64,000 nt of DNA, taken from NCBI RefSeq assembly GCF_947496775.1, contig NZ_CANMDU010000002.1:310001-374000 (forward strand), in the 5' to 3' direction. The notes below the pieces were generated by a model, which was not told the origin of the DNA, searched no databases, and saw only the letters and a program-made list of their open reading frames with translations. Position 1 is the stretch's first letter, and the number at the start of each line of letters is the position of its first letter. The translations under genes and the position numbers were made by a program. The DNA comes from an uncultured Maribacter sp. Lineage in GTDB: Bacteria > Bacteroidota > Bacteroidia > Flavobacteriales > Flavobacteriaceae. Below are positions 3,372 through 47,957 of this stretch, in pieces.

Positions 3372-3373
3372 TA

Positions 3374-34805: not shown

Positions 34806-35124
34806 ATACGGTGGGTAACATGGTTTTTAAAAAATAGCTGGGCTAGCACAAATCAGCATGGTTTGTGCTTTTATATAAACGGACTGGTAGAGAAAACACA
34901 AAAAAACAGACATAACTGCAGCGCTAAATAATATTGGAATTGTGTTTTTACCCAATGGAGAACACTTTATATCTAGAGTTATTGTCTTTTTACATTCGAT
35001 TATCTATACACAAGTCTGTTTTTCATCAGCTTTGAAAAAAAAATGCAAAAAAAATTCACAGTTTCCATTTTTACTTGTCTAAACTTATGTAACCAAAAAT
35101 AATAGGATACATAAATTAAAAACA
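34806..35124. other. Non-coding gap with a terminator-like hairpin
   Basis: A stem of AGCACAAA with TTTGTGCT (34845-34852 and 34862-34869) followed by T residues probably ends the TetR-SDR-DoxX transcript. The rest, to 35124, has no coding frame or recognisable element. Confidence 0.6.
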
Positions 35125-35610
35125 ATGTTTAAGACAAAAAGTTATTTACTTATTGCATTGACTTTTAGCCTAATTTGGGTTGGCAATGCGCAAACAAACA
35201 AAAAAATGGAAACAAATTTTAACTCACAACAAAAGGAAGTCTACAGTACTATTGAAAAAATGGTAATTGCATTTGAAAGCAAAGACATTGATGGTGTTTT
35301 GTCAACTTATGAAAAGAATGCAATAGTCATGTTTGAACCGGGCAAACCAATAACAGGTCATAATGAATTAAGACAAGCGTTTACGCAATTTGTAAACTTC
35401 AATCCAAACTATACTTTCTCTAGTCACGAGGTTTATATTTCAGGAGATATTGCTACTCATATTGCTCCATGGAACATGGTAGGTACTTTACCTGATGGTA
35501 ATAAAATTGAGCAGAATGGACTATCAGTGGCTATCCTTAGAAGACAAACAGATGGAAGTTGGTTAATGATTCAGGATAATCCTCATGGTCAATTTCGTTT
35601 AAATAATTAA
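35125..35610 (+). CDS. Secreted NTF2/SnoaL-like (SgcJ/DUF4440 type) protein
   Basis: A 161-residue protein. MFKTKSYLLIALTFSLIWVGNAQ is a signal peptide. The mature domain of about 130 residues is a cone-shaped NTF2-like fold, with MVIAFESKDIDGVLSTYEKNA, ARHGHNEL-like turn (TGHNELRQAF) and a C-terminal GSWLMIQDNPHG strand. Such proteins bind small hydrophobic molecules or act as isomerases; function here is unknown. A strong hairpin terminator follows directly, so it is a single-gene unit just ahead of an ECF sigma gene. Confidence 0.83.
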   Translation: MFKTKSYLLIALTFSLIWVGNAQTNKKMETNFNSQQKEVYSTIEKMVIAFESKDIDGVLSTYEKNAIVMFEPGKPITGHNELRQAFTQFVNFNPNYTFSSHEVYISGDIATHIAPWNMVGTLPDGNKIEQNGLSVAILRRQTDGSWLMIQDNPHGQFRLNN

Positions 35611-35671: not shown

Positions 35672-36466
35672 ATGAACGAAGAAGAATTAATAAAGAAATC
35701 CTTAGACGGAGATAGAAAAAGCTTAGAAGAACTGATTAATTCAGTTAGAGATTCTATTTTCAATATGGCCATTAGGTTCCTTTATTCAAGAGAAGATTCG
35801 GAAGACGCCACTCAAGAAATTTTAATAAAAATAGTAACCAACCTTAGTAAGTTTAAAGCAAAAAGTAAATTTAAAACTTGGACATATCGTATTGCAACAA
35901 ATTATCTTATTAATTTTAAAAAAACAAAAATAGAGCAACAAAACATATCCTTCGATTACTATGCAAATGACCTAAAAACATTTATAGCCCCTAAAGATTA
36001 TAATTTACCAGATAAGAACCTTTTGGAAAAAGAAATGAAAACGAATTGTACGCTAGCCATGTTACAATGTTTAAATAGAGAACATAGAATAGCTTTCATT
36101 TTAGGAAGTATTTTAAAGATAAAAAGTAATGTTGGAGCAGAAATCACCAATACAAGTTCTTCAAATTTCAGAAAAAAAGTAGAAAAATCGAGAAAACTTA
36201 TTGGTAACTTTATGAATAATAACTGTGGAGTTTACAATCCGAAAAACCCTTGTAGATGTAATGCAAGAATCAATACAGGAATGAAATGCGGTAGAATAAA
36301 AAGAGGAAATTTGCAATTTTTAAGCCATATTGAACTGTATAATGAAGAAATGGAAGAATTACATTCACTTACAGGGATATATCAAAATCATGGTTCTTTT
36401 GAAAGTAAGTTAAATTTCAACTCTCAATTGAGTCAACTTATTGCTTCAAAAAAAATAATGAATTGA
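35672..36466 (+). CDS. ECF-like sigma-70 factor with Cys-rich C-terminal tail (paralog 1)
   Basis: A 264-residue protein. Region 2 is clear: FNMAIRFLYSREDSEDATQEILIKI and FKTWTYRIATNYLINF, for core binding and -10 recognition. Region 4 (about residues 125-180) is degenerate but keeps the FRKKVEKSRKLI helix. A tail then adds NNNCGVYNPKNPCRCNARI and about 70 further residues, far beyond a normal ECF sigma. Four cysteines in this motif could bind metal or sense redox. The same motif occurs in the paralog at 46299. No anti-sigma gene adjoins; the downstream frame is a decayed ankyrin gene. Confidence 0.85.
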   Translation: MNEEELIKKSLDGDRKSLEELINSVRDSIFNMAIRFLYSREDSEDATQEILIKIVTNLSKFKAKSKFKTWTYRIATNYLINFKKTKIEQQNISFDYYANDLKTFIAPKDYNLPDKNLLEKEMKTNCTLAMLQCLNREHRIAFILGSILKIKSNVGAEITNTSSSNFRKKVEKSRKLIGNFMNNNCGVYNPKNPCRCNARINTGMKCGRIKRGNLQFLSHIELYNEEMEELHSLTGIYQNHGSFESKLNFNSQLSQLIASKKIMN

Positions 36467-36491
36467 AATAGCCGATCGCGCAACACTGGGC

Positions 36492-36766
36492 ATGATTAAT
36501 TTGAGATTAGGTATGATTCCTAGTTTAATTTTTGGAGCAAATAAAACGGAACCAAAACCATATAAAGTTGAATTCGTAAAGGAATTTGTTCTTGCTGGGT
36601 ATTTTAGTTTAGACAAAGTAAAGACTGGGATAATCGAATTAGATTAAATACAACAATAGGAACGTAGCCGAATCTAATATTATTAAAAGACCCTCATGGT
36701 TCGACCTCGCTTAATTATGCAGAAATTGAAAGAGAAGAGGCTAAACAACTATATATTTTTTCTTAA
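36492..36766 (+). pseudogene. Decayed copy of the exported ankyrin-repeat protein encoded at 53259-53759
   Basis: Two coding fragments in different frames. The first (36492-36647) includes EPKPYKVEFVKEFVLAG, matching EPEPIDIKLVKEFVVAG near the N-terminus of the intact gene. The second (36668-36766) reads PNLILLKDPHGSTSL, matching PELIFAKGPHGFTLL near its C-terminus. The middle, about 70 residues, is deleted and the frame shifts. The intact homolog lies 17 kb away. It follows the Cys-tail sigma gene directly, so a sigma-ankyrin pair may once have existed here. Confidence 0.72.
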
Positions 36767-36807
36767 ATGACATAAATTTTAGTAAATAAAAACCCTTATA
36801 TTAGTGT

Positions 36808-37218
36808 ATGAGGTCAAAACAATGCAGCGTTTGTTCAGGTTTAGGAGAAAGAAATTTTGTGGCTGGGAGTAGCTCAACTTACGAACAATGCTATGCTTGT
36901 GATGGAACAGGTTACATTCAAGTAGCTGAACAAATAAGAGAAGAAACAGATGGAAGAACAAATGGTGGTAAAGCTATAGATCTTAAAGGAAAAAAAACTA
37001 CCCCACCTGTAAGCTTAAGAGTTATTAAAATAGGTTGGTCAGTAGTTGTATTTGTAGTCACTTGTTTTCTTTCTAAAGGTGTAACGTCAAATAGTATTTA
37101 TGTTTCCCTTGCTATTGGTCTTTTTGCAGCTTTTGTAATGTATAAGTGGTATAAAATACTTGCGCCTATTATAGGCTTTAGCTTATTAGCCTATGGTATT
37201 TATACAATTTTTGGGTAA
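36808..37218 (+). CDS. Membrane protein with DnaJ-type zinc-finger motifs
   Basis: A 136-residue protein. The first 35 residues hold two CxxCxGxG elements, CSVCSGLG and CYACDGTG, which together resemble the central zinc-binding domain of DnaJ. A polar linker of about 35 residues leads to two or three membrane spans from about residue 75 on (WSVVVFVVTCFL and later). No J-domain is present. Such stand-alone zinc ribbons on membrane anchors may bind unfolded thiol-bearing proteins; no function is assigned. Confidence 0.7.
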   Translation: MRSKQCSVCSGLGERNFVAGSSSTYEQCYACDGTGYIQVAEQIREETDGRTNGGKAIDLKGKKTTPPVSLRVIKIGWSVVVFVVTCFLSKGVTSNSIYVSLAIGLFAAFVMYKWYKILAPIIGFSLLAYGIYTIFG

Positions 37219-37315
37219 AACAATTCAGCTCTCTGAAGTTTACAACTTTAAACTATTTACACAGTTTTTCTAAAATAAAAGAGACATGCCGGTTGTCTTA
37301 ATGGTTAAATCTTTT

Positions 37316-37339
37316 AAAAAATGATAGTTATCATTTTTT
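37316..37339 (+). terminator. Hairpin with T tract, probable terminator
   Basis: AAAAAATGATA and TATCATTTTTT form an 11-base inverted repeat around a minimal loop, with T residues at the 3' side. It lies about 100 bases after the zinc-finger gene. Confidence 0.55.
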
Positions 37340-37483
37340 TAAGCTATTTTTTGTTTAAATTATAAGTGATTCTACAAGATTAATTGGTTTTTATTAATTA
37401 ATTATGAAAGCCTTTATAGTGAGAGCTTTTACTTTCATTTATGCAAACTAGGTTTTGTTATTACACTTTTAAATAAAAGAATA

Positions 37484-37816
37484 ATGTTTATAGAAAAACA
37501 AATTTCTACATCAAAAAGGGATTTAGACATTTCCAAATTTTTAGTAAAAATAGAGCATAGCTATATACATATTATACAGCTAAAAGGTAGATTATGTTCT
37601 TATACATATGAGCCGCGAACATCTGATTTACATGAAAAATTAGAAGAGTTGAAATTACGAATAGAGTTGCTATGCATTTCGCATTTAAACCTTATGACTA
37701 AATTAAAAACTCCGGTTAATTTTATAGAAGTTCCCAAACAACAAGTAGAAGAACAGATAAGGGAAGCGTTGTTAATAGAAAAAGCTATTTCAGCGTATAT
37801 GATTATGGCAAAATAA
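37484..37816 (+). CDS. Hypothetical 110-residue helical protein
   Basis: I do not recognise this protein. It is soluble, with no signal peptide, and mostly helical with heptad-like Leu/Ile spacing from about residue 20 to 70 (HEKLEELKLRIELLCISHLNL), so a coiled coil is plausible. The codon use is like its neighbours. The stop codon lies within the left arm of a strong terminator hairpin. A 265-base gap without genes precedes it, so it is probably a single-gene unit. Confidence 0.6.
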   Translation: MFIEKQISTSKRDLDISKFLVKIEHSYIHIIQLKGRLCSYTYEPRTSDLHEKLEELKLRIELLCISHLNLMTKLKTPVNFIEVPKQQVEEQIREALLIEKAISAYMIMAK

Positions 37817-37851
37817 TACTTCGAGGCTAATAGCTTCGAAGTATTATTTTT
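37811..37851. terminator. Terminator hairpin after the hypothetical gene
   Basis: AATAATACTTCGA (37812-37824) pairs with TCGAAGTATTATT (37836-37848), and the loop has a further GCT/AGC pairing. The T-rich right arm and A-rich left arm allow action on both strands, between convergent genes. Confidence 0.85.
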
Positions 37852-37856
37852 AAAAC

Positions 37857-37954
37857 GTAAACAACCTCGGGGCAAGCCCACGAGGCACTAGAAGGAAAAT
37901 TAGCATTGATTTCGACGCAAGCTTCTAACAATATAAATCTCTATTATCGATTAA
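37857..37954 (+). repeat. Dispersed intergenic repeat, copy B
   Basis: The first 66 bases (37857-37922) match copy C at 57491-57556 with a single difference. Within it, CCTCGGGGCAAGCCC and ACGAGG fold into a hairpin with one bulged A. The less conserved tail contains TAAATCTC and ATTATCGATTAAAA. It lies between convergent genes, right after a terminator. Confidence 0.85.
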
Positions 37955-37958
37955 AAAA

Positions 37959-38948
37959 TTACTTTGCCAATTTTCTAAGGGTAACCCATTGTTTTAGCAT
38001 TTCTCTAGAATCGCAAGCTGGGTAGCCAAGTACGGTTTTGCCAGCAGCAACATCACTAACCACGCCAGAACCTGCACCAACAGTTACGCCAGAGTGTAAG
38101 GTGGTATGGTCATTTATAGAGGCACTACCACCAATAATTACCCCATCTCCTAAAGTAACAGAACCAGCTAAACCACTATGACCAGCCATAATACAAGAAC
38201 GACCCATAACGGAGTTGTGGCCTATTTGTACTAGATTATCTATTTTGCAACCATCACCGATTATGGTAGAACTAAATTTACCACGATCTACACAAGAATT
38301 AGAACCTATTTCTACTGCATTACCAATAACAACATTTCCTATTTGCGGAATTTTCACTAATCCTTTACCATCTGTACTTGGTCTAAATCCAAAACCATCA
38401 GCACCAATACTTACGTTGGTATGGATAATACAGCTATGCCCTATAATAGTACGTTCTCGAATTACGGTTCCAGACCAAATAGTACATCCGTTACCAAGAG
38501 TAGTATCGTCCATAATAGTAACATTAGGATATAAAATGGTATTATCACCAAGTATAACATTTTTACCTACATAAGTATTAGCTCCAATTTGGCACCCTTT
38601 TCCTAGAGTGGCTGTTTTATGTACTACGGCTGTTGGGTGAATATCCTCTTCAAATGCAGGTAGGCCTGGGTCAAATAATTCTAGAATTTTAGCCATAGCT
38701 AAATCTGCATTAGGAACTTTAATAAGGGCTTTGTTTTCTCCGGGTTCTAAATCTATTTTTTCATCAATTACGGCAACACTGGCATTGGAAGATGCCCAAA
38801 GTTTAGCATATTTTCTATTTCCTATAATAGTAATTTCTCCTTCTTTAGCATTTTCTAATTGCTCTGGTGCAGTAATAATTGCGGATGTATTGCCTAAAAT
38901 TTCTCCATTTAATTCAGAATTAATTTCTGCTACGGTGAATGATTTCAT
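37959..38948 (-). CDS. lpxD: UDP-3-O-acylglucosamine N-acyltransferase
   Basis: A 329-residue left-handed parallel beta-helix protein. An N-terminal uridine-binding domain (about 1-100) is followed by hexapeptide repeats from HPTAVVHKTATLGKGCQIG on. GADGFGFRP and DNLVQIGHNSVMGRSC mark LpxD; the His in QIGHN is the catalytic base. The C-terminus has a short helical tail. It adds a 3-hydroxyacyl chain to UDP-3-O-acyl-glucosamine in lipid A synthesis. Flavobacteria often carry more than one LpxD-like gene, and this one is not beside lpxA or lpxC, so it may be the secondary copy. Confidence 0.88.
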   Translation of the reverse strand: MKSFTVAEINSELNGEILGNTSAIITAPEQLENAKEGEITIIGNRKYAKLWASSNASVAVIDEKIDLEPGENKALIKVPNADLAMAKILELFDPGLPAFEEDIHPTAVVHKTATLGKGCQIGANTYVGKNVILGDNTILYPNVTIMDDTTLGNGCTIWSGTVIRERTIIGHSCIIHTNVSIGADGFGFRPSTDGKGLVKIPQIGNVVIGNAVEIGSNSCVDRGKFSSTIIGDGCKIDNLVQIGHNSVMGRSCIMAGHSGLAGSVTLGDGVIIGGSASINDHTTLHSGVTVGAGSGVVSDVAAGKTVLGYPACDSREMLKQWVTLRKLAK

Positions 38949-39450
38949 AATGGTTAATAGTTTATTTATTTTTTAACAATATAGGTATAATTAATTGGGA
39001 GAATCCTATATGAATTAAATTTTTGGCAAATGTAGGGATTCCGTAGAGGCTTTATATTGAGATTTGTTTTTAGGCATTGTTTCCGCTACAATAAGTAATT
39101 ATTTACTAGAATTAATTAAGCTTTACAGGTAATCTTGGATAAGGTTATCTTGTTTCTCAAATAGAGGTGAATAGGTACTTGTGACAAATGTTCTTAGGGT
39201 TTCTTTTTTCTCAATCGGTACTAATTTCAGTACCGAAGAAGTACCTTTTTGCTATTTCTGGATTAATCAGCGCTTTTCATATTTGAGAGGGGGGTAACTT
39301 TAAGGTCTAACGAGGGTACCGATATGAATTGTTTTTACCAAGTTACTTTTTTAGTATGTATAAACGATTGGTTATAATGATGAATTTTGAATATGCTTAC
39401 TTGGGAGAGCAAAGATGTAGTCTCCGTAATGTATATTTTGTCCTTAATAT
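38949..39450. other. Non-coding gap with one perfect inverted repeat
   Basis: No coding frame is convincing. TCGGTACT and AGTACCGA (39215-39222 and 39229-39236) form an 8-base perfect inverted repeat with a 6-base loop but no T tract, so it is more like an operator or RNA hairpin than a terminator. Short upstream frames that overlap the next gene are shadows. Confidence 0.45.
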
Positions 39451-39753
39451 TTACAATAGCTCACCTTGTATTAAAATAGAAGATTTTATAGACTGTTCTT
39501 TTAAATGCAAGAATTTTTTTCTTTTTTCATCTTGCTTAAAATTGTCGAAATCTTGTTGTGTGCTAAACTCTACTAAATGAATTTCATAGGGTTTTTCGAT
39601 ATTTCTTTCGATAATGGAATCTTCACTTGGTCGTATTCTTAAAGTTAACCGACCATTATATTTTAATAGGGTAGGGATTGCTATATTTTCGAATTCATTG
39701 AAAACCTTTTCTTGTCCATTTACGATGTATATTAATTGGGTTATATAAATCAT
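39451..39753 (-). CDS. DUF1330-like small protein (dimeric alpha-beta barrel)
   Basis: About 100 residues starting MIYITQLIYIVNGQEKVF. An ATG at 39783 would add a basic, unsupported leader. The pattern FNEFENIAIPTLLKYNGRLTLRIRP and PYEIHLVEFSTQQDFDNFKQDE is that of DUF1330 and related ferredoxin-like dimeric barrel proteins, with no known catalytic residue. Function is unknown. It stands downstream of two membrane-protein genes on the same strand but with a separate 70-base gap. Confidence 0.68.
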   Translation of the reverse strand: MIYITQLIYIVNGQEKVFNEFENIAIPTLLKYNGRLTLRIRPSEDSIIERNIEKPYEIHLVEFSTQQDFDNFKQDEKRKKFLHLKEQSIKSSILIQGELL

Positions 39754-39826
39754 GATTTTTCTTTTTTTGTTATACCAATTCACAGCTAACCATTAGCATA
39801 TAAAAAGTAAGATAGTTGTTTTTATC

Positions 39827-40144
39827 TTATTTTTCATTTGTCTTTATATGACGAAGAATTTTGTAGTCGAGGTAAAAGGTACCAAAAGGAATAAGGCATG
39901 CTATAAGGAATTGCCAAGTTATTTTTTTAAAACTCCATTGTTTTTCTACACTAACACTTAAAGCATTTAGAATATAAAAAATAAATAATGCTCCATGAAT
40001 TGGCCCCATACTTTTAGTTAGTGAAGGATTATGGTAATAATGTTTTAATGGAGCGGCTATAAAAACTAGAATAATTAAAGAAATACCCTCTAGAAAACCA
40101 AAAAGGCGTAAACGACCTACGGATGATGAAAAATATTTTATCAT
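39827..40144 (-). CDS. DUF3817 family membrane protein
   Basis: A 105-residue protein with three membrane spans. LRLFGFLEGISLIILVFIAAPLK and MGPIHGALFIFYIL match the DUF3817 signatures (Gly-Glu-Gly-x-Ser, Pro-Leu-Lys, His-Gly). Family function is unknown. It starts 2 bases after the upstream membrane-protein gene, so the two form an operon likely controlled by the TetR encoded at 40685. Confidence 0.85.
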   Translation of the reverse strand: MIKYFSSSVGRLRLFGFLEGISLIILVFIAAPLKHYYHNPSLTKSMGPIHGALFIFYILNALSVSVEKQWSFKKITWQFLIACLIPFGTFYLDYKILRHIKTNEK

Positions 40145-40146
40145 AA

Positions 40147-40611
40147 TTAAAAAACTCTATAAATTGGTCTACTAGCAAAAGGAGAAAAAGGCCATGGAAT
40201 GGCAATTAAAATGATAAAAAGCGCAACGCAAAACCACACCAGCGTGGTTTTAAACTTTTCTTTGTCCGTTAATTTCCTTTTAGCTAATGCGGAACCAATG
40301 GTTAAAACAATAATAGCTATGAACATTAGGCCCATATGAATGAGGCCATAAAATACTGCGTCAAAGTTTAATATGCTAGTTTTAGTATTAGACCAAAAAC
40401 TCTTTACTACAGGACTTTGAAAATAGAGAATCATACCCAACATTAATTGAATATGGGCAATCGTCGCTGTCCAATGCCTAAAACTATTGTCGGTTTTGGA
40501 GTAGGTTTTTTTATAAGTATACCCTATGTATACTCTATATATAGAATACAATAAGAAAGTAAGTACAAGCCAACGAATTATGGAATGTAAAACTAATATA
40601 GTAGAATACAT
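40147..40611 (-). CDS. Four-span conserved membrane protein
   Basis: About 154 residues starting MYSTILVLHSIIRWLVL; the TTG at 40638 is a poorer start because it would begin beside the promoter -7 box. Four membrane spans are seen. RHWTATIAHIQLMLGMILYF holds two conserved His residues, and His also occurs in LHSIIRW and LIHMGLM. This looks like a small family common in Bacteroidota, perhaps a cytochrome b561-like or CopD-like helix bundle, but haem binding is not shown. It heads the two-gene unit with DUF3817 under a TetR operator. Confidence 0.75.
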   Translation of the reverse strand: MYSTILVLHSIIRWLVLTFLLYSIYRVYIGYTYKKTYSKTDNSFRHWTATIAHIQLMLGMILYFQSPVVKSFWSNTKTSILNFDAVFYGLIHMGLMFIAIIVLTIGSALAKRKLTDKEKFKTTLVWFCVALFIILIAIPWPFSPFASRPIYRVF

Positions 40612-40647
40612 TTTCAGACTTTTTTTGATGATTAACAAAATTAAACT

Positions 40648-40673
40648 AAAAACATACTACTTAGTATGTTTTT
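40648..40673. promoter_or_regulatory. TetR operator (12-base arms) before the membrane-protein operon
   Basis: AAAAACATACTA and TAGTATGTTTTT form a perfect inverted repeat with a CT spacer. It lies directly upstream of a minus-strand -7 box TAATTTTG (40636-40643), between the TetR gene and its likely target. The core TACTA-N2-TAGTA recurs at 41282-41293. Confidence 0.8.
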
Positions 40674-40684
40674 AAATAAAAAAA

Positions 40685-41275
40685 TTATTGTAAAGTATGT
40701 AAATAGGTTTTGAGTTGATTTAAATAGGGGAGGTATGCTTTTTTAGTATTCTCTAATTTTCCAAAATTTCGTATACCCCAATAACCAGAAATTACGAATA
40801 CGGTTACGTGTTTTGCATTTACATCCTTGCGAACAAATGCATTTTCCTTTCCTTTTTCAATCAAGGAAGTCATACTTTGTATCCACAGTTTGGTTATTTC
40901 CTTTAAAGCTCTTCCAAAATCTACATTCCAAGGAGTCATTTCTTGCGTAAAGTTTGAAGTTGGGCAACCATATTCAACTTTTAAAAATTCGGTTTTCATT
41001 AAGAGGTTTTCCATTAAGGTGTAAATAGCATCTAACGGATTTTCTATAGTATATAGTGGGTCTATAAAACTTTCAGTAAGGGAGGGTTTTAGAATTTCGT
41101 TGATAATTGCAAGTCCCATTTCGTCTTTTGTCTTAAAATGATAATAAAAGGCACCTTTTGTTACTTGCGTTGTGGCAATAATTTCATCAATACTTGTTGT
41201 TTGGTAGCCTTTCGTATAAATCAGTTTAAACGCTTTGTGTAAAATGCTAAGTCGTGTAGTTTCTGCTTTTTTCAT
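40685..41275 (-). CDS. TetR/AcrR-family repressor (second of three)
   Basis: A 196-residue protein. The HTH spans ILHKAFKLIYTKGYQTTSIDEI to VTKGAFYYHFKTKDEMGLAI, a textbook TetR N-terminus. The C-terminal domain has YGCPTSNFTQEM, a segment seen in the TetR_C subgroup near YcdC/NemR-like proteins; its Cys could sense electrophiles, which is inference. It is followed on the same strand by two membrane-protein genes, and matched palindromes sit before it and before them. Confidence 0.9.
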   Translation of the reverse strand: MKKAETTRLSILHKAFKLIYTKGYQTTSIDEIIATTQVTKGAFYYHFKTKDEMGLAIINEILKPSLTESFIDPLYTIENPLDAIYTLMENLLMKTEFLKVEYGCPTSNFTQEMTPWNVDFGRALKEITKLWIQSMTSLIEKGKENAFVRKDVNAKHVTVFVISGYWGIRNFGKLENTKKAYLPYLNQLKTYLHTLQ

Positions 41276-41281
41276 AAAAGG

Positions 41282-41293
41282 TACTATATAGTA
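41282..41293. promoter_or_regulatory. TetR operator upstream of its own gene
   Basis: TACTATATAGTA is a perfect palindrome 6 bases before the TetR ATG. It keeps the core TACTA-N2-TAGTA of the site at 40648-40673, so the repressor probably controls itself as well. Confidence 0.65.
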
Positions 41294-41353
41294 TTTTTAC
41301 AAAGAAAAGATAAAATGATTGGGTTCCAAAATTCGGATAGCTTCGACTATTAT

Positions 41354-42316
41354 TTACCATTCCACGTTCGGGAAATGGGCAATATTTTTTTGCGCATTAA
41401 AATCATGAGCTGGTATAACTTTTAAATTGGGCTTCTCTTTTATTAGGTGATGTATCATTACAATAGTCTTTTTAATGTTCTCTCTATCCCCATCTACTTT
41501 TCTTCTTGGAATAGCATGCTTTTCTGATGGACCATTAAAGGCTTCTACTGCCCAAGTTAAGTCGCCAGTAAAGAAGTAGCGCTTACCCGATTTTAGGTTA
41601 ACGAACATTCCTAAAGAACCTTTGGTGTGTCCTGGTAGTTTTACTAGAACTACAGTTCCATCATTGAAAACATCATAACTTTCTTTAAATATTTCGTATT
41701 CCGTTGTGCTAAAATCTAGAAACTTCCATTTTATAAAATCCGCATTATATTGTTCTTTGATAAATGCAGGAGGAGTTGCTCCCTTGCTAATAGCATGGTT
41801 GTATTCTTCTCTTGTTGTCCAAACCGTAGCGTTTGGAAAATCTTTTATTCCACTAGCATGATCAAAGTGAAGATGACTAGGTATAATAAAATCAATAGAA
41901 TCTGGATTGAATTTATTAGTAACTAACATCTCTTTCATGGATTTTAGTTTTGTAAACTTAAAAAGTTGACGGTCTATAAAAGAAAAATTATCATGAAACT
42001 GTTCTTTTATTTCACTACCCAAACCAGTATCAAACGCAAATGTTCCCTTTGGATGTTGAATCAATACAGAAACATGTGACAACTTACGTGTTTTAAATAA
42101 ATTTCCTCCTCTATACACAAATGCTTCCGGGGTTTTTGCAAAACCAGTTTCAATGATGGATAGAGAAAATGTAACTTCTTGGTTTATGGGGTAGCTTTTT
42201 TTTGAAAATTTGGGAGTTGTATATGTACTAACATCAATCGTAGTCTTACAAGATAAAATGAAAAAGAGAATACTAGCTACTAATAAGACCGACGATATGA
42301 TTTTAAATTTCTTCAT
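41354..42316 (-). CDS. MBL-fold metallo-hydrolase lipoprotein (lactonase-like)
   Basis: A 320-residue protein with a lipoprotein signal ending in FFILSCKTT. HLHFDHASG is the metallo-beta-lactamase HxHxDH metal motif. LPGHTKGSLGMFV adds the third-position His, TGDLTW the bridging Asp, and PAHDFNAQ the last His. The order and spacing fit quorum-quenching lactonase and related families. It should be tethered in the envelope. The substrate cannot be assigned. It lies 63 bases after a Crp/Fnr-type gene on the same strand. Confidence 0.85.
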   Translation of the reverse strand: MKKFKIISSVLLVASILFFILSCKTTIDVSTYTTPKFSKKSYPINQEVTFSLSIIETGFAKTPEAFVYRGGNLFKTRKLSHVSVLIQHPKGTFAFDTGLGSEIKEQFHDNFSFIDRQLFKFTKLKSMKEMLVTNKFNPDSIDFIIPSHLHFDHASGIKDFPNATVWTTREEYNHAISKGATPPAFIKEQYNADFIKWKFLDFSTTEYEIFKESYDVFNDGTVVLVKLPGHTKGSLGMFVNLKSGKRYFFTGDLTWAVEAFNGPSEKHAIPRRKVDGDRENIKKTIVMIHHLIKEKPNLKVIPAHDFNAQKNIAHFPNVEW

Positions 42317-42379
42317 TATTCTTTAGGTTTATCAAAACACAAAAGAACGCCATGAGGATTTTTTTTGCATTACCATTTG

Positions 42380-42955
42380 TTAAGAAATGAATATTTCTTT
42401 TTTTATTCTACTTAATGATTCTGGAGTAATACCTAAAAAAGTAGCAATCATATGTTGTGGAACTCTTTGAACAATTTTTGTCTCGTAATTTTTAATGAAT
42501 TCTAGGTATTTTTCTTTTGCATTTTTGGTTTGCATAGTCAGTGTTCTATCAAGAACACATAAATAGTTTTTTTCTGCTAATATTCGCCCAAGTTTTTCAA
42601 ACTTCGAAGATTCTTGGTATAAAATATTAAGTTTTTTATAGGATAACTCATATACTATACTATGTTCAATTACCTCTAAAGTTTCGAACGAGGGTGCCTG
42701 ACTAATAAAACTTGAAAAAGTAGATATGAATTGCGTATCGCAAGCAAAGTAGGTGTTCATTTCTTTTCCGTCCTGTAAATGATACGTTCTTAGTAGGCCA
42801 TTTTCTATGAAGTATAAATTTTGAGCAATGCTTCCTTCATTAATTATTACGGTTTTCGCATTATACTCTTTTCTGTTTAGTTTAGTGTAAAAATCTTGCC
42901 ATTCCTCTTTTGTTAACCCTATTAATTTGTTTAAAATTTGATACAGTTCGTTCAT
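42380..42955 (-). CDS. Crp/Fnr-family transcriptional regulator
   Basis: A 191-residue protein. The N-terminal cyclic-nucleotide-like barrel shows INEGSIAQNLYFIENGLLRTYHLQ. The C-terminal winged helix has VPQHMIATFLGITPESLSRIKKE as the recognition helix. It lacks Fnr-type cysteines, so no iron-sulfur cluster is expected. This short version with weak nucleotide-binding residues is common in Bacteroidota; the ligand is unknown. It lies between a DUF2200 gene (16-base gap) and the MBL hydrolase. Confidence 0.9.
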   Translation of the reverse strand: MNELYQILNKLIGLTKEEWQDFYTKLNRKEYNAKTVIINEGSIAQNLYFIENGLLRTYHLQDGKEMNTYFACDTQFISTFSSFISQAPSFETLEVIEHSIVYELSYKKLNILYQESSKFEKLGRILAEKNYLCVLDRTLTMQTKNAKEKYLEFIKNYETKIVQRVPQHMIATFLGITPESLSRIKKEIFIS

Positions 42956-42971
42956 TTTTATAGTAGATGGT

Positions 42972-43349
42972 TTATTTCTTTTCTTCTCGCAATATTTTAT
43001 TCATTTTACGACCTTTTGCCAATTCATCAATTAGCTTTTCCATTTGCCTACATTCCTTATACAGTTTAAATTCATCTTCTATTTCTTCAATTTTATAACC
43101 GCAAACCACCCCTTTAATTAAATGTGCATTAGGATGTATATTGGCTTTTTCGAAAAAAGTTTTAAAAGTTACTTTCTCTTTAATAAGCTCTTGTAATTTG
43201 TTTTCATTAAAACCAGTAAACCATTCTATTATTTGGTGAAACTCTTCTTTTGTTCTCCCATTTTTCTCTAACCTGTTTAAATAAAGTGGATAAATAGATG
43301 CAAATATCATATTCCCTATTTTTTCATTTTTCTCTGCTGTTACTTTCAT
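42972..43349 (-). CDS. DUF2200 family protein
   Basis: A 125-residue protein that matches DUF2200 throughout: IYPLYLNRLEKNGRTKEEFH, IIEWFTGFNENKLQ, PNAHLIKGVVCGYKIEEIED and LIDELAKGRKMNKILR. No signal peptide or membrane span is present. Family function is unknown. It is on the same strand as, and close to, the Crp/Fnr gene, so shared transcription is likely. Confidence 0.9.
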   Translation of the reverse strand: MKVTAEKNEKIGNMIFASIYPLYLNRLEKNGRTKEEFHQIIEWFTGFNENKLQELIKEKVTFKTFFEKANIHPNAHLIKGVVCGYKIEEIEDEFKLYKECRQMEKLIDELAKGRKMNKILREEKK

Positions 43350-43461
43350 CCTTTTTGGTTTTAAATTAGTTGCTATTAATGGTTTGCTAATAAAAGCGAG
43401 GAAGTTTTTATAACCTACTTACAATAAAGTTTTTTTTCTATAAAAAACAAAAAAATGCATT

Positions 43462-44412
43462 TTATTTTTCCCATGTCATAACTACTTTTCCTCGTGTTCT
43501 CATAGATTCTATATATTTAATAGCTTCAGGAATTTGAGAGTAGGAATAAGTTTTTTCAATATGCGGTTTAATGCCCCCTTTTTCTATAAGATTGGCTAAG
43601 GTATTTAAGTCATTATAATTGGCTTTAGCAGTAAATTGTGTTAAAGGAAATTTACTAAAACCAGCATTTATCAGTACAGAAAACATATGTTTCATGGTTG
43701 TAAAACCTACCATAATACCACGTTTCCCCATTCTTTTGTAATCGGAAAACTTAAGATTGCCATTTGTATCCAATACCAAATCATACTTTCCGTTATGTTG
43801 GTGAATATTTACTTTATCATAAGCAACGACTTTGTCAGCGCCAATAGATTTTACAAAATCAATATTTTTGTTGGAACATATAGCTGTTATATGAGCACCA
43901 TAAACTTTTGCAATTTGTACTGCAAAATGGCCAACTCCTCCAGAAGAGCCATTAATTAGCACTGTTTCTCCCTTTTTTAGCTTTCCATATGTTAATAAAC
44001 TTTGCCATGCTGTTAAACCGGCAAGTGGTACACATGCCATATCGTTATATGTTGTTCCTTCAGGCATTAGCCCGCAAACATGTTCAGGAGCACAAATATA
44101 CTGAGCAAATGCTCCTTCTCCGAGCATTTCTCCAAAAACACGATCACCAACCTTAAAATTTGTAATATCTGTCCCTACTTCTTGAACAATGCCAGAAAAG
44201 TCAGCTCCAAGAACTTTATTTTTTGGTTTAAACAGACCGAAAGTAAATCTAGAAAAAAAAGGTTTTCCTCTTAAAATATGCCAGTCAGCAGGATTTGCAG
44301 AATTTGCTTTGACTTTAATTAATACATGTTTTTTTTTCAATATTGGTTGTTCAATTTCTTCTAAACCAAGCACTTCAGGACCTCCGTATATATGTTTTGT
44401 TATAGCTTTCAT
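43462..44412 (-). CDS. NAD(P)-dependent zinc-independent alcohol dehydrogenase / quinone reductase
   Basis: A 316-residue medium-chain dehydrogenase. The N-terminal GroES-like fold has ANPADWHILRG and GADFSGIVQEVG; the cofactor domain has GSSGGVGHFAVQIAKVYG. The usual zinc ligands are absent, as in quinone oxidoreductases. Such enzymes reduce quinones or enones with NADPH. It stands alone with a long gap upstream. Confidence 0.9.
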   Translation of the reverse strand: MKAITKHIYGGPEVLGLEEIEQPILKKKHVLIKVKANSANPADWHILRGKPFFSRFTFGLFKPKNKVLGADFSGIVQEVGTDITNFKVGDRVFGEMLGEGAFAQYICAPEHVCGLMPEGTTYNDMACVPLAGLTAWQSLLTYGKLKKGETVLINGSSGGVGHFAVQIAKVYGAHITAICSNKNIDFVKSIGADKVVAYDKVNIHQHNGKYDLVLDTNGNLKFSDYKRMGKRGIMVGFTTMKHMFSVLINAGFSKFPLTQFTAKANYNDLNTLANLIEKGGIKPHIEKTYSYSQIPEAIKYIESMRTRGKVVMTWEK

Positions 44413-44884
44413 CGTAAGTTAAAAATTATGTTATGCCTTTTAGTGATTCTTTATTTAATTTGTACGATAGTCACAACTTCAAATTGTTTAACTACTTTAG
44501 ATTCATTATGATCGTATCCTGCATTTATGCGCTACCGAATCCGCTATGGATAAAAAGAATTACAGACTTTGATACATCGTCATCTTTTATAGTAATTCAT
44601 TGTTCTATTTCTTCAGTAAAAACAAATTTGTTTTCATTGGTAGATTTGTTTTGGGCTATTGAAAAAAAATGTAATCAATAAAGTCAGGAAGATTGAACAT
44701 GCTATTTTCATAGGAACGTAATATTATGCCACAAGAATAAGACGCTAAAGGAGCTAAATTGTTACTAAAGAGCTATATATTAAACTATAAATAAGATTTG
44801 GGGAACTAATACTTTTGTAACTAGATTAAAGCTAGTAGAGCATTATACAAACTCTTGTCTTTTGTTGTTATAAATATTTTGTTT
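44413..44884. other. Long gap with no convincing gene
   Basis: A plus-strand frame (44433-44681) has no family signs and poor composition. On the minus strand, short broken stretches such as YDHNESKVVKQFEVVTIVQ look coding and could be remains of a small gene, but no family is recognised. No terminator is clear. Confidence 0.35.
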
Positions 44885-45562
44885 CTATGTTGGTTCTTCG
44901 TTTAGCTCTTCAATAGTCCGATCTAAGTCCTGCAATATACTAGTATATTGTTTAGCATTCATTTTAACGATAAATGGCATAGCAAAAATCATAATCATCA
45001 GAAATAGTGCAAAGTATGATTCAAAAATATATGATCCATTAGATGAAAAATTCATATTACTAATCCCTCCAATTTTCATCAATGTATCAATCTCAATTAG
45101 GACGAATATAGCAATCAATGATATTGTACCTATCCAATTGCCTTTTTTTGTTATAGTTTTAAAATAGGTTTTAACATTTATTAGTGATTCCTTCAACGTA
45201 CCAGTATTGTATGAGTACTTAGTAAAATTTAAATTTCTTTTTAAACTTATTAGTACGTAAATAATAAATGCTTCCATAAGGCATGGAATAAGATACGCCC
45301 CACCAAGTCTTGAATTTGTTTTAGACAGTAGTCCAAGACTATCACGATATATGAGAAATAGTATAACAAATAACATGAAGATAGCAATACTCATATAAAC
45401 ATTAAAGTCATGCTTGTGTTTTCTTTCTAATTTGCTAATAATTCCGTTTCCTTTTTTTGTAATTATTTCTAGAATGTGTTCTTTTGCTAAATTCTTATCT
45501 ATTAATTTTTCTTCAGCAAGAATACTCCATATTTTTTTTAATTCAACTGTTTCCATTTTCAA
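44885..45562 (-). CDS. Four-span membrane protein, probable anti-sigma partner
   Basis: A 225-residue protein. A cytoplasmic N-terminal part of about 55 residues (KKIWSILAEEKLIDKNLAKEHIL) precedes two pairs of membrane spans (about 55-110 and 140-205), then a short acidic tail. Its ATG lies within the end of the ECF sigma gene (20-base overlap), so translation is coupled. Position and layout suggest that it holds the sigma factor at the membrane, although no classical zinc-binding anti-sigma motif (H-x3-C-x2-C) is seen. Confidence 0.7.
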   Translation of the reverse strand: MKMETVELKKIWSILAEEKLIDKNLAKEHILEIITKKGNGIISKLERKHKHDFNVYMSIAIFMLFVILFLIYRDSLGLLSKTNSRLGGAYLIPCLMEAFIIYVLISLKRNLNFTKYSYNTGTLKESLINVKTYFKTITKKGNWIGTISLIAIFVLIEIDTLMKIGGISNMNFSSNGSYIFESYFALFLMIMIFAMPFIVKMNAKQYTSILQDLDRTIEELNEEPT

Positions 45563-46031
45563 ATGATTTTAAAATTTTAGATTTAATTCTTTTTATTTTA
45601 ACCCCTGTATTGTTTTTTGAGATACCAATAATCTCAGAAATTTCTTCATAACTATATTCATCTAGATACAATGTAATTATGGCTTTATCGACATTAGATA
45701 GTTTACTGATGGCCTCATATAGTTTTTCTTGATTACTACAATTTGTATCGTCGTTATTGGGTAAGTTATGTAGATTACTGTCGAATAATTTTACTTGCGT
45801 TACTTGCTTTTTTTCTTTTTTAGTTATATTAATTGCTGCATTAACACAGACGCGATACATCCATGTAGAAAACTTAGAAGTATTATTAAAACTGGGAAAT
45901 GCCTTCCATAATTGAATGATAAGTTCTTGGTGATAATCTTCTTTTTCAAGCCTATCTCTAAAATATATATTACATATTTTATGAACTATTCCTTGATTTT
46001 CATATAACAGCTCGGTAAACTTGTCTTTCAT
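45543..46031 (-). CDS. ECF RNA polymerase sigma factor
   Basis: A 162-residue sigma-70 family protein of normal ECF length. Region 2 reads FRDRLEKEDYHQELIIQLWKA and FSTWMYRVCVNAAINI. Region 4 reads LSNVDKAIITLYLDEYSYEEI, followed by IGISKNNTGVKIKRIK as the -35 recognition helix. It overlaps the downstream membrane-protein gene by 20 bases, a typical sigma/anti-sigma pair. It differs from the two Cys-tail sigma factors elsewhere in this window. Confidence 0.93.
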   Translation of the reverse strand: MKDKFTELLYENQGIVHKICNIYFRDRLEKEDYHQELIIQLWKAFPSFNNTSKFSTWMYRVCVNAAINITKKEKKQVTQVKLFDSNLHNLPNNDDTNCSNQEKLYEAISKLSNVDKAIITLYLDEYSYEEISEIIGISKNNTGVKIKRIKSKILKSFENGNS

Positions 46032-46298
46032 AAATTGTGAACATTTTTATACCCTATTAGACAAATATTAAGTGTTAGAAATTACAGATTCGAAAACTAT
46101 TTTTAAAAAAAATAGAAAAAGTGCTAGTTAGAAAGAAAAAAAGAAATAATTAAAGTATTGAATATTGGAACCTAAAATAATATTGTTTCTAGTTAAAAAG
46201 GAATTTATATGTTTTTTACTCAAATTCTTTGTCAGCGAATAATTTTTCTTCACCAATTGTCACACTTCGTATCTTTTCCATGTCTAATTAACAGAGAT

Positions 46299-47105
46299 AT
46301 GAAAGATACATTAGAAATTTTAGTGGAAAAGGCCAATTTGGGCGACAGAAAAGCTTTGGAATCGGTAGTGCTAAACATCAAGGATTACATTTACAACCTA
46401 TCCTTGAAAATGTTGCTCTACTCTGAGGATGCTGAAGATGCAACGCAAGAAATACTTATCAAGGTGATAACTCATTTGAGCACTTTCAATCATAAAAGCA
46501 AGTTTGTGACTTGGGTTTATCGAGTAGCAACTAATTATTTAATAACCTATAAAGGTAAAAAAAGTAAAGAGTTTGCAATGTCTTTTGGTGATTATGCAGA
46601 CTTAATAGATACCGGTCGTTCCGATACAGTTAGATATTCGAGCAATGAAGGTGAACTTTCTCTTTTAGAAGAAGAGGTAAAGGTAAGTTGTACGCAAGGT
46701 TTGTTGCTTTGTTTGAATTCCGTGGATAGAATGGTGTACATTTTGACTGAAATTTTAGAGTTTAATAGTGTTGAAGGTTCAGAAATAATGGAAATTACGG
46801 CTGAAAATTATAGAAAGAAAGTGTCACGCTCGAGAGCCAAAATTCGAAATTTTTTAAATAATAAATGTGGGCTGTCAAACCCTAAAAACCCCTGTCGCTG
46901 TAATAAAAAGATTGATTTTCTTGTTGACCAAAAAATTGTAAATCCAAAAGAATTAAGGTTTGCTGGTTTTTCGAAAAGAAGTATCGATTTGGTTGAGAAA
47001 TTAGGCGAATTAGAGAAGTCCATTGCCATTTACCGTTCTGTTCCTAAAGCTCATGCACCAATGACAATTTTTAATAATATAAAACAAGCGTTAGCACTCG
47101 ATTAA
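46299..47105 (+). CDS. ECF-like sigma-70 factor with Cys-rich C-terminal tail (paralog 2)
   Basis: About 268 residues starting MKDTLEILVEKANLGDRKAL; the upstream ATG at 46209 adds 30 unrelated residues and is rejected by comparison with the paralog at 35672. Region 2 is YNLSLKMLLYSEDAEDATQEI and FVTWVYRVATNYLITY. Region 4 is weak, with the YRKKVSRSRAKIRNFL helix. The tail has NNKCGLSNPKNPCRCNKKI, then about 80 residues (KELRFAGFSKRSIDLVEKLGE). The four-Cys motif is shared with paralog 1. Two genes follow closely: a membrane protein and an MGMT-like protein. Confidence 0.87.
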   Translation: MKDTLEILVEKANLGDRKALESVVLNIKDYIYNLSLKMLLYSEDAEDATQEILIKVITHLSTFNHKSKFVTWVYRVATNYLITYKGKKSKEFAMSFGDYADLIDTGRSDTVRYSSNEGELSLLEEEVKVSCTQGLLLCLNSVDRMVYILTEILEFNSVEGSEIMEITAENYRKKVSRSRAKIRNFLNNKCGLSNPKNPCRCNKKIDFLVDQKIVNPKELRFAGFSKRSIDLVEKLGELEKSIAIYRSVPKAHAPMTIFNNIKQALALD

Positions 47106-47107
47106 AT

Positions 47108-47554
47108 ATGATTACCAAAAAATTCAATAGGAAACACTTTGTTGTCATTACGTTGCTGACCAGTATTTGGATTAACATTTCCGAGGTTTTTAGATATTTT
47201 GTATTTGTTAAACCACGTATAAAGTCTTTTTTTGACTATAAGCAGGGTGTTGCGGATATGGACTTAGGTATTTTCGCTATTTGGGGGTTTTGGGACACTC
47301 TTTTAACAGGTTTCCTAGTTTTTGTTTTTTGGCTCTATTCTAGGGTTTTTAGGAGTTCCAATTGGTCAGTTTTCATTTCGGGCACTATAGTTTGGTCGGC
47401 TGTTTTCGTTATTTTTTGGGTTGCAACAGCAAATATGGGATTGTCGGAATGGAAAATTCTATGGATAACATTGCCTTTAAGTTGGCTGGAAATGACAATT
47501 GGTGCTTGGATTGCATCTAAACTTTATAAAAAATACGAAAATGACGAAATGTAA
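47108..47554 (+). CDS. Four-span membrane protein of the Cys-tail sigma run
   Basis: A 148-residue protein with four membrane spans and a short, charged C-terminus (KLYKKYENDEM). Landmarks are IWINISEVFRYFVFVKPRI after the first span and FWDTLLTGFLVFVFW in the middle. I do not recognise the family. It starts 2 bases after the sigma gene and overlaps the MGMT-like gene by 14 bases, so the three are one operon. A role as membrane-bound regulator of the sigma factor is inference. Confidence 0.7.
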   Translation: MITKKFNRKHFVVITLLTSIWINISEVFRYFVFVKPRIKSFFDYKQGVADMDLGIFAIWGFWDTLLTGFLVFVFWLYSRVFRSSNWSVFISGTIVWSAVFVIFWVATANMGLSEWKILWITLPLSWLEMTIGAWIASKLYKKYENDEM

Positions 47555-47957
47555 AATAATAGATATCCCAACAAAGATGGAAAAGTTTTATGGGAAAGGA
47601 AAAATGTTACACCCTTCGATCGAAGAAATAGAAGAACTTGTAAAAACCATTCCTAAAGGTTTCGTGGCTACGATAGATGCACTCGCAAAGCGTCTGGCAA
47701 AAGATTTTGGCACGGACGTAACTTGTCCAATGAGAACAGGAAATGCTATAAAGAAAATCTCTGAACGCTATTCAAATGATAATATCGATTTGAAAACTCC
47801 GTTTTGGCGTGTAATCCGTTCTGATAAAATGATTATTAAGTCGAAAAATTTTGATTTTTGTGCATCTAAAATCGAGGACGAAGGCTTCAAATTACTTTTC
47901 ACAAAATCTGGTGCTATAAAACTAGATGTCAATGGCAACAGAATGTTCTTTTTTTAG
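47541..47957 (+). CDS. MGMT/Ada DNA-binding-like protein
   Basis: About 138 residues starting MTKCKIIDIPTKMEKFYGKG; the upstream ATG at 47499 is inside the preceding membrane gene and unlikely. TIPKGFVATIDALAKRLA, CPMRTGNAIKKI and FWRVIRSDKMI follow the order of the winged-helix DNA-binding domain of O6-alkylguanine transferases. The PCHR active-site Cys motif is absent, so it cannot repair by alkyl transfer; it is like alkyltransferase-like proteins that only bind DNA. The family assignment is from memory. It is the last gene of the sigma run. Confidence 0.65.
   Translation: MTKCKIIDIPTKMEKFYGKGKMLHPSIEEIEELVKTIPKGFVATIDALAKRLAKDFGTDVTCPMRTGNAIKKISERYSNDNIDLKTPFWRVIRSDKMIIKSKNFDFCASKIEDEGFKLLFTKSGAIKLDVNGNRMFFF

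Follow-up and report, generated by a model that had tools for sequence, protein, structure and literature searches.

ECF-like sigma factors of an uncultured Maribacter belong to a family with five invariant cysteines, a predicted single-operon promoter and a putative regulatory tail

A stretch of 64,000 nucleotides (nt) from an uncultured Maribacter sp. (contig NZ_CANMDU010000002.1, positions 310,001 to 374,000; hereafter the window) encodes two sigma factors of the extracytoplasmic function (ECF) type that carry a cysteine-bearing tail behind region 4. These proteins, P0001 (35672-36466, + strand; 264 amino acids) and P0002 (46299-47105, + strand; 268 amino acids), were 40-41% identical to each other, and an earlier note made from the sequence alone had placed two ECF-like proteins at exactly these positions, where both reading frames were found to be intact. 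A longer open frame begins at 46209, upstream of the conserved promoter described below, and the conserved start of P0002 is that at 46299. The clear region 2 and weak region 4 described in that note were recovered in Pfam searches, in which Sigma70_r2 scored above its cut-off in both proteins (E 3.7e-12 for P0001 and 1.9e-11 for P0002), whilst region 4 was sub-threshold in P0002 (E 0.0014) and unreported in P0001. Both passed the ECF superfamily model TIGR02937 (scores of 51.5 and 57.1, against a cut-off of 42.9), and their top NCBIfam equivalog models, PRK12513 for P0001 and SigW for P0002, were far under cut-off.

The cysteine motif shared by the two proteins, CG-x2-NPKNPCRC, lies at residues 185-196 of P0001 (36224-36259, + strand) and residues 190-201 of P0002 (46866-46901, + strand), with a further 68 and 67 residues, respectively, after its last cysteine. 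The motif is real and common to both, as had been noted, though it holds three cysteines and not the four originally counted. Two further invariant cysteines, overlooked in that reading, are located at the start of region 4, at positions 126 and 133 of P0001 and 131 and 138 of P0002, the latter forming a Cys131-x6-Cys138 pair (46689-46712, + strand). The complete set therefore consists of residues 126, 133, 185, 194 and 196 in P0001 and 131, 138, 190, 199 and 201 in P0002; these are the only five cysteines of P0002, and the additional Cys206 of P0001 was not conserved. No domain was detected at Pfam cut-offs in the tails scanned, namely those of P0001, P0002, three relatives (L064, L065 and L043; L numbers denote loci) and 18 members of the P0002 clade.

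Alignment of 55 distinct family members demonstrated that all five cysteines were kept in every one (as they were in smaller, overlapping sets of 28 and 48 proteins), including members with as little as 28% identity to P0002. Sixteen positions never varied among the 55, and the five cysteines were among these, alongside core sigma residues. The motif is thus family-wide and not confined to the two window proteins, nor do its cysteines vary freely among orthologues, two of the three outcomes that the earlier note had named as counting against it. The five-cysteine set was found in none of 41 other ECF open reading frames (ORFs) aligned to the same profile, most of which stop before the tail columns; a cysteine at position 131 was present in two of these (L054 and L004), and one at position 138 in none. 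Conservation in 55 of 55 proteins, against 0 of 41 other ECF ORFs, ruled out the candidate explanation of ordinary ECF sigma factors with chance cysteines. Family membership was defined by a cut-off of 250 bits, and since no ORF among the fetched loci scored between 131 and 294 bits, this cut-off hid no cysteine-less relatives among those loci. AlphaFold2 models built from 15 and 50 alignment rows reached a mean predicted local distance difference test (pLDDT) score of 51.7 and 66.5, and in a low-confidence model C131 lay within, and C138 just past, the helix (residues 117-137) that opens region 4, which would place these two residues, seven apart, on one helix face.

When 395 Bacteroidota genomes were searched with a profile, 15 family proteins were retrieved from 11 of them (E of 4.4e-53 or lower, the next match being at 2.6e-26). 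Among 397 genomes of the same taxonomic family, 19 had a match at E 1e-30 and 17 an intact member, the two not counted as intact being a fragment at a contig end (G477) and an ordinary ECF (G709); within the genus, four of eight genomes encoded a family sigma factor. This sporadic occurrence in Bacteroidota suggests transfer and loss. Relatives covering at least 84% of P0002 were also retrieved from plasmid records of Leptospira (14), Enterococcus raffinosus (5) and Runella (1); all 14 Leptospira records, including that of Leptospira interrogans (L064), carried a member at 41.1-41.6% identity to P0002. There were several instances of genomes with two or three family members (G103, G726, G419, G753, G283 and G146), and in G103 and G726 these were a few kilobases apart, like the pair in the window. 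A phage origin of the family was dropped, as a tblastn search gave six phage records, in all of which the match extended over less than 80% of the query, with no family member found among them, and the viral contigs searched likewise yielded no member, nor did a query with another window sigma gene. A deeper ECF alignment drew on 34 of 70 viral ECF loci, with L142 and L175 excluded for stops.

The phylogeny of the 55 proteins, rooted at the midpoint for drawing only, split deeply into two clades. The 22 rows of clade I were 19 P0002-type proteins, P0001, its sister L130 and an Enterococcus protein on a long branch; the 33 rows of clade II included the Leptospira and Runella proteins.

Alignment of the 200 nt ahead of 12 P0002-type genes revealed the promoter-like element TGTCACA-N16-TGTCTAA, which in the window lies at 46258-46287 (+ strand), 11 nt before the P0002 ATG. 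The gap between site and ATG was mostly 9-12 nt in P0002-type loci, which would leave room only for a very short leader, and the element is hence predicted to be a near-leaderless autoregulatory promoter. Its counterpart in the P0001 operon, ATTCACA-N15-TGTCTAA (35054-35082, + strand), is located 42 nt before the ATG of the first gene, which encodes a SnoaL-like protein, and is likewise a predicted autoregulatory promoter. The promoter version varied with sub-clade: P0001 and its sister L130 share ATTCACA, indicating that the -35 box changes with sub-clade, and in clade II, operons in which a partner gene lies upstream mostly carried TGTAACA-N14/15-(T/G)GTCTAA ahead of that partner. The Enterococcus operon (L065) had a perfect site.

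Each operon was scored by its best match to TGT(C/A)ACA-N15/16-TGTCTAA in the 200 nt ahead of the sigma gene or of any of up to three genes lying upstream on the same strand. A perfect site was found in 23 of 50 family operons, and 37 of the 50 had a site with two mismatches or fewer; this count was made with corrected starts for W2 and L029, and without L106, which duplicates the contig of L025, and L125, for which there is no sequence upstream. Control gene groups from the same loci, which overlap each other and may include some true targets, gave no perfect site in 490, one mismatch in 8 and two or fewer in 37, and of 1000 shuffled sets 5 had two mismatches and none had fewer. Across 49 loci, 17 non-sigma genes were preceded by a site with one mismatch or none at a spacing of 14-16, all of them on the same strand as, and no more than two genes from, a family sigma gene.

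Within the window, the related pattern TGTCNNA-N14-17-TGTCTAA matched once, against no match in 100 shuffles, and in the Maribacter genome the exact promoter pattern occurred twice, against none for a reversed control; the second copy lies inside a reading frame, and no further exact copy precedes a gene. The P0001 version, TTCACA-N15-TGTCTAAA, was exact once in the genome, and allowing one mismatch gave 2 matches against 3 for the reversed pattern, such that only the exact match is informative. Further regulon members in this genome were rejected, given that eight of nine extra matches fell within reading frames longer than 100 amino acids; the ninth (L231, one mismatch) is 39 nt before a 312-amino-acid frame and overlaps the end of a 360-amino-acid frame on the same strand, and is probably a chance match. 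Another one-mismatch match (L234) was also set aside, having no frame of at least 60 amino acids starting within 300 nt behind the site. Elsewhere in the family, the downstream SRPBCC-like gene (+2) at L122 has its own one-mismatch promoter copy, and the sole good site at L103 precedes a downstream membrane gene (+1), so that some regulons may exceed the sigma operon.

The genes that accompany the two sigma factors differ. The P0001 operon begins with a gene for a SnoaL/NTF2-like protein with a signal-peptide-like start (35125-35610, + strand; Pfam SnoaL_2, E 1.2e-9), relatives of which, at 48-54% identity, are encoded by genes that precede family sigma genes by 57-66 nt at four clade II loci (L096, L112, L113 and L115); a SnoaL gene was also seen at L126 and L127. 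In the P0002 operon, the sigma gene is followed after a 2-nt gap by a gene for a clade-conserved membrane protein of 148 amino acids (47108-47554, + strand), which had no match above Pfam or NCBIfam cut-offs and was found at the +1 position of 19 of 20 P0002-type loci (two of these, L025 and L106, being one contig). The third gene (47541-47957, + strand) encodes a protein like the DNA-binding domain of MGMT (PF01035, E 1e-4, sub-cut-off), with relatives in 13 of the 20 loci. This protein reads PFWRV where active MGMT has PCHRV; it is therefore probably not a methyltransferase, judging from this motif, and a catalytic MGMT partner was rejected on the same ground. The secreted-type SnoaL/NTF2-like, membrane and MGMT-like neighbours named in the earlier note were thus borne out. 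A decayed ankyrin gene, also named there, was not: no ankyrin remnant was found behind P0001 with the ankyrin protein of L130 as the sole query. Downstream of the P0001 sister gene in L130 itself, an ankyrin-repeat protein is encoded at 2680-3441 (Pfam Ank_2, E 8.7e-17), and downstream of P0001 lies a gene whose product is a small membrane protein, a CxxC stretch of which resembles DnaJ (36808-37218; Pfam E 0.001, sub-cut-off). Divergent from P0002, a canonical ECF gene is coupled to a gene for a membrane protein (44885-46031, - strand), which by its position is likely to be the anti-sigma partner of that ECF.

Chosen representatives of the neighbours at other family loci were assigned by Pfam to ABM, YdhR, polyketide-cyclase (SRPBCC), DinB, SDR and cupin families, with a weak, sub-threshold CMD match. 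These are small folds of ligand-binding or detoxifying type. Metal efflux, metallochaperone and siderophore families were absent from this scanned subset of neighbours, and a metal regulon was rejected accordingly.

A separate anti-sigma gene of the familiar kind was sought by its motif. When the three genes to each side of 52 family sigma genes at 50 loci (one contig being counted twice) were searched, none encoded a protein with the HxxxCxxC signature of zinc-associated anti-sigma (ZAS) factors, though this search is blind to anti-sigma factors without the ZAS motif. By comparison, a ZAS-type protein was encoded at 19 of 32 other-ECF loci from other genomes; two loci fetched because of an annotated SigW/anti-sigma pair (L221 and L222) stand outside the 32, and both hold a ZAS protein.

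The tail of P0002-type proteins bears some resemblance to such an anti-sigma factor. Its profile, compared with 177,635 PDB sequences, returned RsiW first (E 0.0079), with a tail stretch at about residues 233-264 of P0002 (46995-47090, + strand) resembling RsiW residues 39-70; a profile of region 4 plus tail from P0002 relatives returned, up to E 1, solely PhyR-type, sigma and RsiW (E 0.36) chains. In hhalign comparisons with 21 ZAS anti-sigma factors the P0002-clade tail scored 24.8, whereas the best of 250 column-shuffled decoys reached 22.4; with two Bacillales proteins removed, leaving 19 factors, it again exceeded every column shuffle. Among solved structures SigW is the closest to the sigma portion, and RsiW is the anti-sigma factor of SigW; what speaks for an anti-sigma origin of the tail is that the top match is the partner of this closest relative. 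The HxxxCxxC zinc motif was absent from the tails that were aligned. On these comparisons, we would put the chances of an anti-sigma origin at about even in the P0002 clade, and lower in the other clades.

A second cysteine-bearing ECF family is represented in the same Maribacter genome by L004 1471-2259 (G000:C4:161489-162277). All four members read for cysteines (L004, L202, L203 and L204) have H-x3-C-x2-C in region 4.1 and C-x8-C-x2-C behind region 4; the former is the ZAS signature, here located within a sigma region. The ligands are shifted by one helix turn with the layout kept, as would be expected of a metal site. Three relatives of L004 were found in 148 genomes, and a Haliscomenobacter plasmid gene, outside the four read for cysteines, was 56% identical to one member of the family. 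At three loci scanned, the neighbours were SnoaL, SRPBCC or NmrA genes. No TGTMACA promoter lay within 200 nt in any of the four (best sites with 4-5 mismatches).

Taken together, P0001 and P0002 are probably one-component ECF sigma factors with their regulator in cis, acting mainly on their own operon. Each sigma factor would read the promoter-like site before its own operon, closing a positive loop. The tail would fold back on regions 2 and 4 and hold the sigma factor off, with the two region-4 cysteines (i, i+7) and the three tail cysteines forming one metal-thiolate site, most likely for zinc, by which the tail is fastened to region 4. Release would come from a signal that strips this site of its metal or modifies the thiols by oxidation or alkylation, and would yield more sigma factor together with its partners: the membrane and MGMT-like proteins for P0002, the SnoaL protein for P0001, and ABM/YdhR, SRPBCC, DinB or SDR proteins elsewhere. 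The tail end of the P0002 clade may perhaps be descended from an RsiW-type anti-sigma helix. We infer the metal, the signal and the inhibition by the tail from sequence comparison. The proposal of the earlier note, that the tail acts in cis in place of a separate anti-sigma factor, stands as the best reading of the family-wide motif, the invariant cysteines and the absence of a ZAS gene near 52 family genes. The predicted autoregulatory promoter, the likeness to ECF41 and the weak anti-sigma resemblance of the P0002-clade tail had not been remarked on in that note.

Several observations weigh against this interpretation. The other-ECF loci of the Maribacter genome (L003-L019) also encode no ZAS-type protein, so the absence of such a gene is weak evidence on its own, and the membrane gene adjoining P0002 could itself be the regulator. 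The invariant cysteines could be purely structural, and the tail was of low confidence in both AlphaFold2 models, with block-mean pLDDT of 39-59. With regard to the anti-sigma likeness, the score of the whole-family alignment was reached by 18 of 250 and 29 of 250 decoys, the clade II tail (an alignment of 32 of 33 tails, the near-duplicate L127 being omitted) had no anti-sigma factor among 8 PDB matches, and scores of one-sequence hidden Markov models overlapped those of shuffled controls. Of the control profiles compared with the PDB, that of a reversed tail came to E 0.02 and that of a shuffled tail to E 0.24, with unrelated proteins; 16 of the 18 shuffled tails entered the controls. Thirteen of the 50 operons lacked a site with two mismatches or fewer at a spacing of 15-16; five of these (L066, L099, L102, L104 and L105) have a one-mismatch site at a spacing of 14, and L064 has a two-mismatch site ahead of a gene 305 nt upstream, with no comparable site in the remainder. 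One-mismatch matches in the Maribacter genome were also near the reversed-pattern background (5 against 1, 5 against 2 and 2 against 3).

Invariance of the cysteines would suit a structural site equally well as a sensor, and it is conceivable, if unlikely, that they are a zinc staple that holds region 4 and tail together with no part in sensing, control being transcriptional or exerted via the membrane protein. The zinc motif of RsiW is described as having a structural role (PMC7406223), and the coupling of the membrane protein to nearly all P0002-type genes would be in keeping with such an arrangement; a staple accounts less readily for five invariant cysteines instead of four, and relatives of the membrane protein were clustered at no other family loci, yet the cysteines persist there. 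We attach a similarly low probability to the site being a metal sensor proper, which would bind copper, cadmium or zinc, or iron, and so switch the sigma factor on or off. Precedents for this exist in CorE/CorE2 and OrbS, whose cysteine tails extend past region 4 (PMC8999054, PMC9023288), and cysteines before region 4 with a cluster after it amount to a CorE-like topology, but the neighbours scanned, a subset, belonged to SnoaL, ABM, YdhR, SRPBCC, DinB, SDR, NmrA and MGMT-like families, with no metal family among them.

Less probable still is control in trans, in which a protein of ligand-binding fold encoded in the operon (SnoaL, ABM or SRPBCC) would sense the signal and bind the tail, much as the fused SnoaL domain does in ECF41. 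It would agree with the SnoaL-like domain in cis of ECF41 (PMC8999054) and with the pairing of SnoaL genes with sigma genes of either deep clade (P0001 in clade I; L096, L112, L113 and L115 in clade II). However, the window SnoaL protein and the YdhR-like proteins have N-termini that, by eye, resemble signal peptides, and would therefore not be expected to encounter a cytoplasmic sigma factor; the partners moreover differ across clades, and the promoter position suggests that they are targets. That the cysteines are a functionless quirk inherited within one lineage appears very improbable, having nothing in its support beyond the relatedness of the proteins, when they supply five of the 16 never-varying positions and the L004 family carries a shifted version.

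Control by a tail in cis is compatible with a more specific history, which we regard as possible but doubtful: a fusion of a sigma factor with an RsiW-type anti-sigma factor, in which the ZAS ligands were lost and the metal site was rebuilt across the joint, with two cysteines in region 4 and three in the tail. If so, region 4 and the inhibitor it carries would be physically locked together by a single thiol-metal site, and a self-amplifying switch of one operon would open once that site was oxidised, alkylated or stripped of its metal; the H-x3-C-x2-C family would be an independent or sister solution. At least 26 ECF groups bear extensions, of which described mechanisms cover 11 and the other 15 await study, according to PMC8999054. 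Cis-regulated sigma factors are compact switches for which few mechanisms have been worked out, and what the present family offers for their study is five candidate switch residues, which in P0002 are its sole cysteines, a promoter that is defined, and ECF41 as a comparison group. ECF41 shares the -35 box and single-operon logic and differs in the tail, such that the way in which a tail might silence a sigma factor, and what would open it, becomes a testable question.

The ECF41 group has been described as having a specific TGTCACA -35 box, a spacer of 16 +/- 1 and its own or a neighbouring operon as target, together with carboxymuconolactone decarboxylase, oxidoreductase or epimerase (COE) neighbours, no obvious anti-sigma factor and a regulatory C-terminal extension (PMC3426412), this extension being a SnoaL-like domain in cis (PMC8999054). 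Like ECF41 (Ecf41Bli, R. sphaeroides Ecf41 and SigJ), the P0002 clade and the Enterococcus member have a TGTCACA -35 box with a spacer of 15 or 16; clade II differs in having mostly TGTAACA and some spacers of 14, and P0001 in having ATTCACA. The predicted single-operon design is also shared. No ZAS-type protein was encoded within three genes of the 52 sigma genes, by a search blind to other anti-sigma factors, and SDR, NmrA and CMD-like partners (the last by one weak match) occurred only at some loci. Unlike ECF41, the extensions scanned contained no SnoaL domain, the -10 element was mostly TGTC (of the listed sites, just those of L032 and L102 have CGTC), and the family has five invariant cysteines. 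By sequence, then, it resembles ECF41 in regulon design without belonging to it by the defining SnoaL domain.

Control in cis by cysteine tails has its precedents in CorE/CorE2 (PMC8999054) and OrbS (PMC9023288). CorE/CorE2 (ECF238, formerly ECF44) have a CXC in the linker between sigma2 and sigma4 and a cysteine-rich C-terminal domain (PMC8999054). As in these proteins, with CorE compared by its description, the family has cysteines before and behind region 4 and no ZAS-type anti-sigma gene nearby; unlike them, its sole conserved CXC (C199-x-C201) is in the tail, and no metal-homeostasis family was present among the scanned neighbours. OrbS, a member of ECF243, is an on-board Fe(II) sensor that is inhibited by Fe(II), governs a siderophore regulon and has four cysteines in a short tail, at positions 196, 199, 203 and 209 (PMC9023288); its cysteine cluster, like that of the present family, begins at the boundary of region 4.2.

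With RsiW the P0002 clade has in common the tail stretch described above, the other clades showing no significant likeness. The zinc-thiolate site of RsrA is a redox switch whose fourth ligand lies at the beginning of helix I (PMC4960319), and in a low-confidence model Cys 199 and 201 lie where the first tail helix begins, like Cys11 of RsrA (PMC4960319). Unlike the ZAS anti-sigma factors RsiW and RsrA, the tail is fused to its sigma factor and has no HxxxCxxC. ECF240 has a model protein from Chryseobacterium and ECF287/288 are groups abundant in cysteine (PMC8999054), and ECF240 or ECF288 might contain the proteins described here. In the literature passages covered, which did not include the 2021 ECF classification, no description was found of a five-cysteine tail tied to region 4 together with an ECF41-type promoter and a single-operon circuit, nor any paper linking NPCRC with a sigma factor or treating a PCRC motif. 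Regulatory sigma tails are already known; relative to these, it is the combination of five cysteines, an ECF41-type promoter and a predicted single-operon circuit that may be new here.

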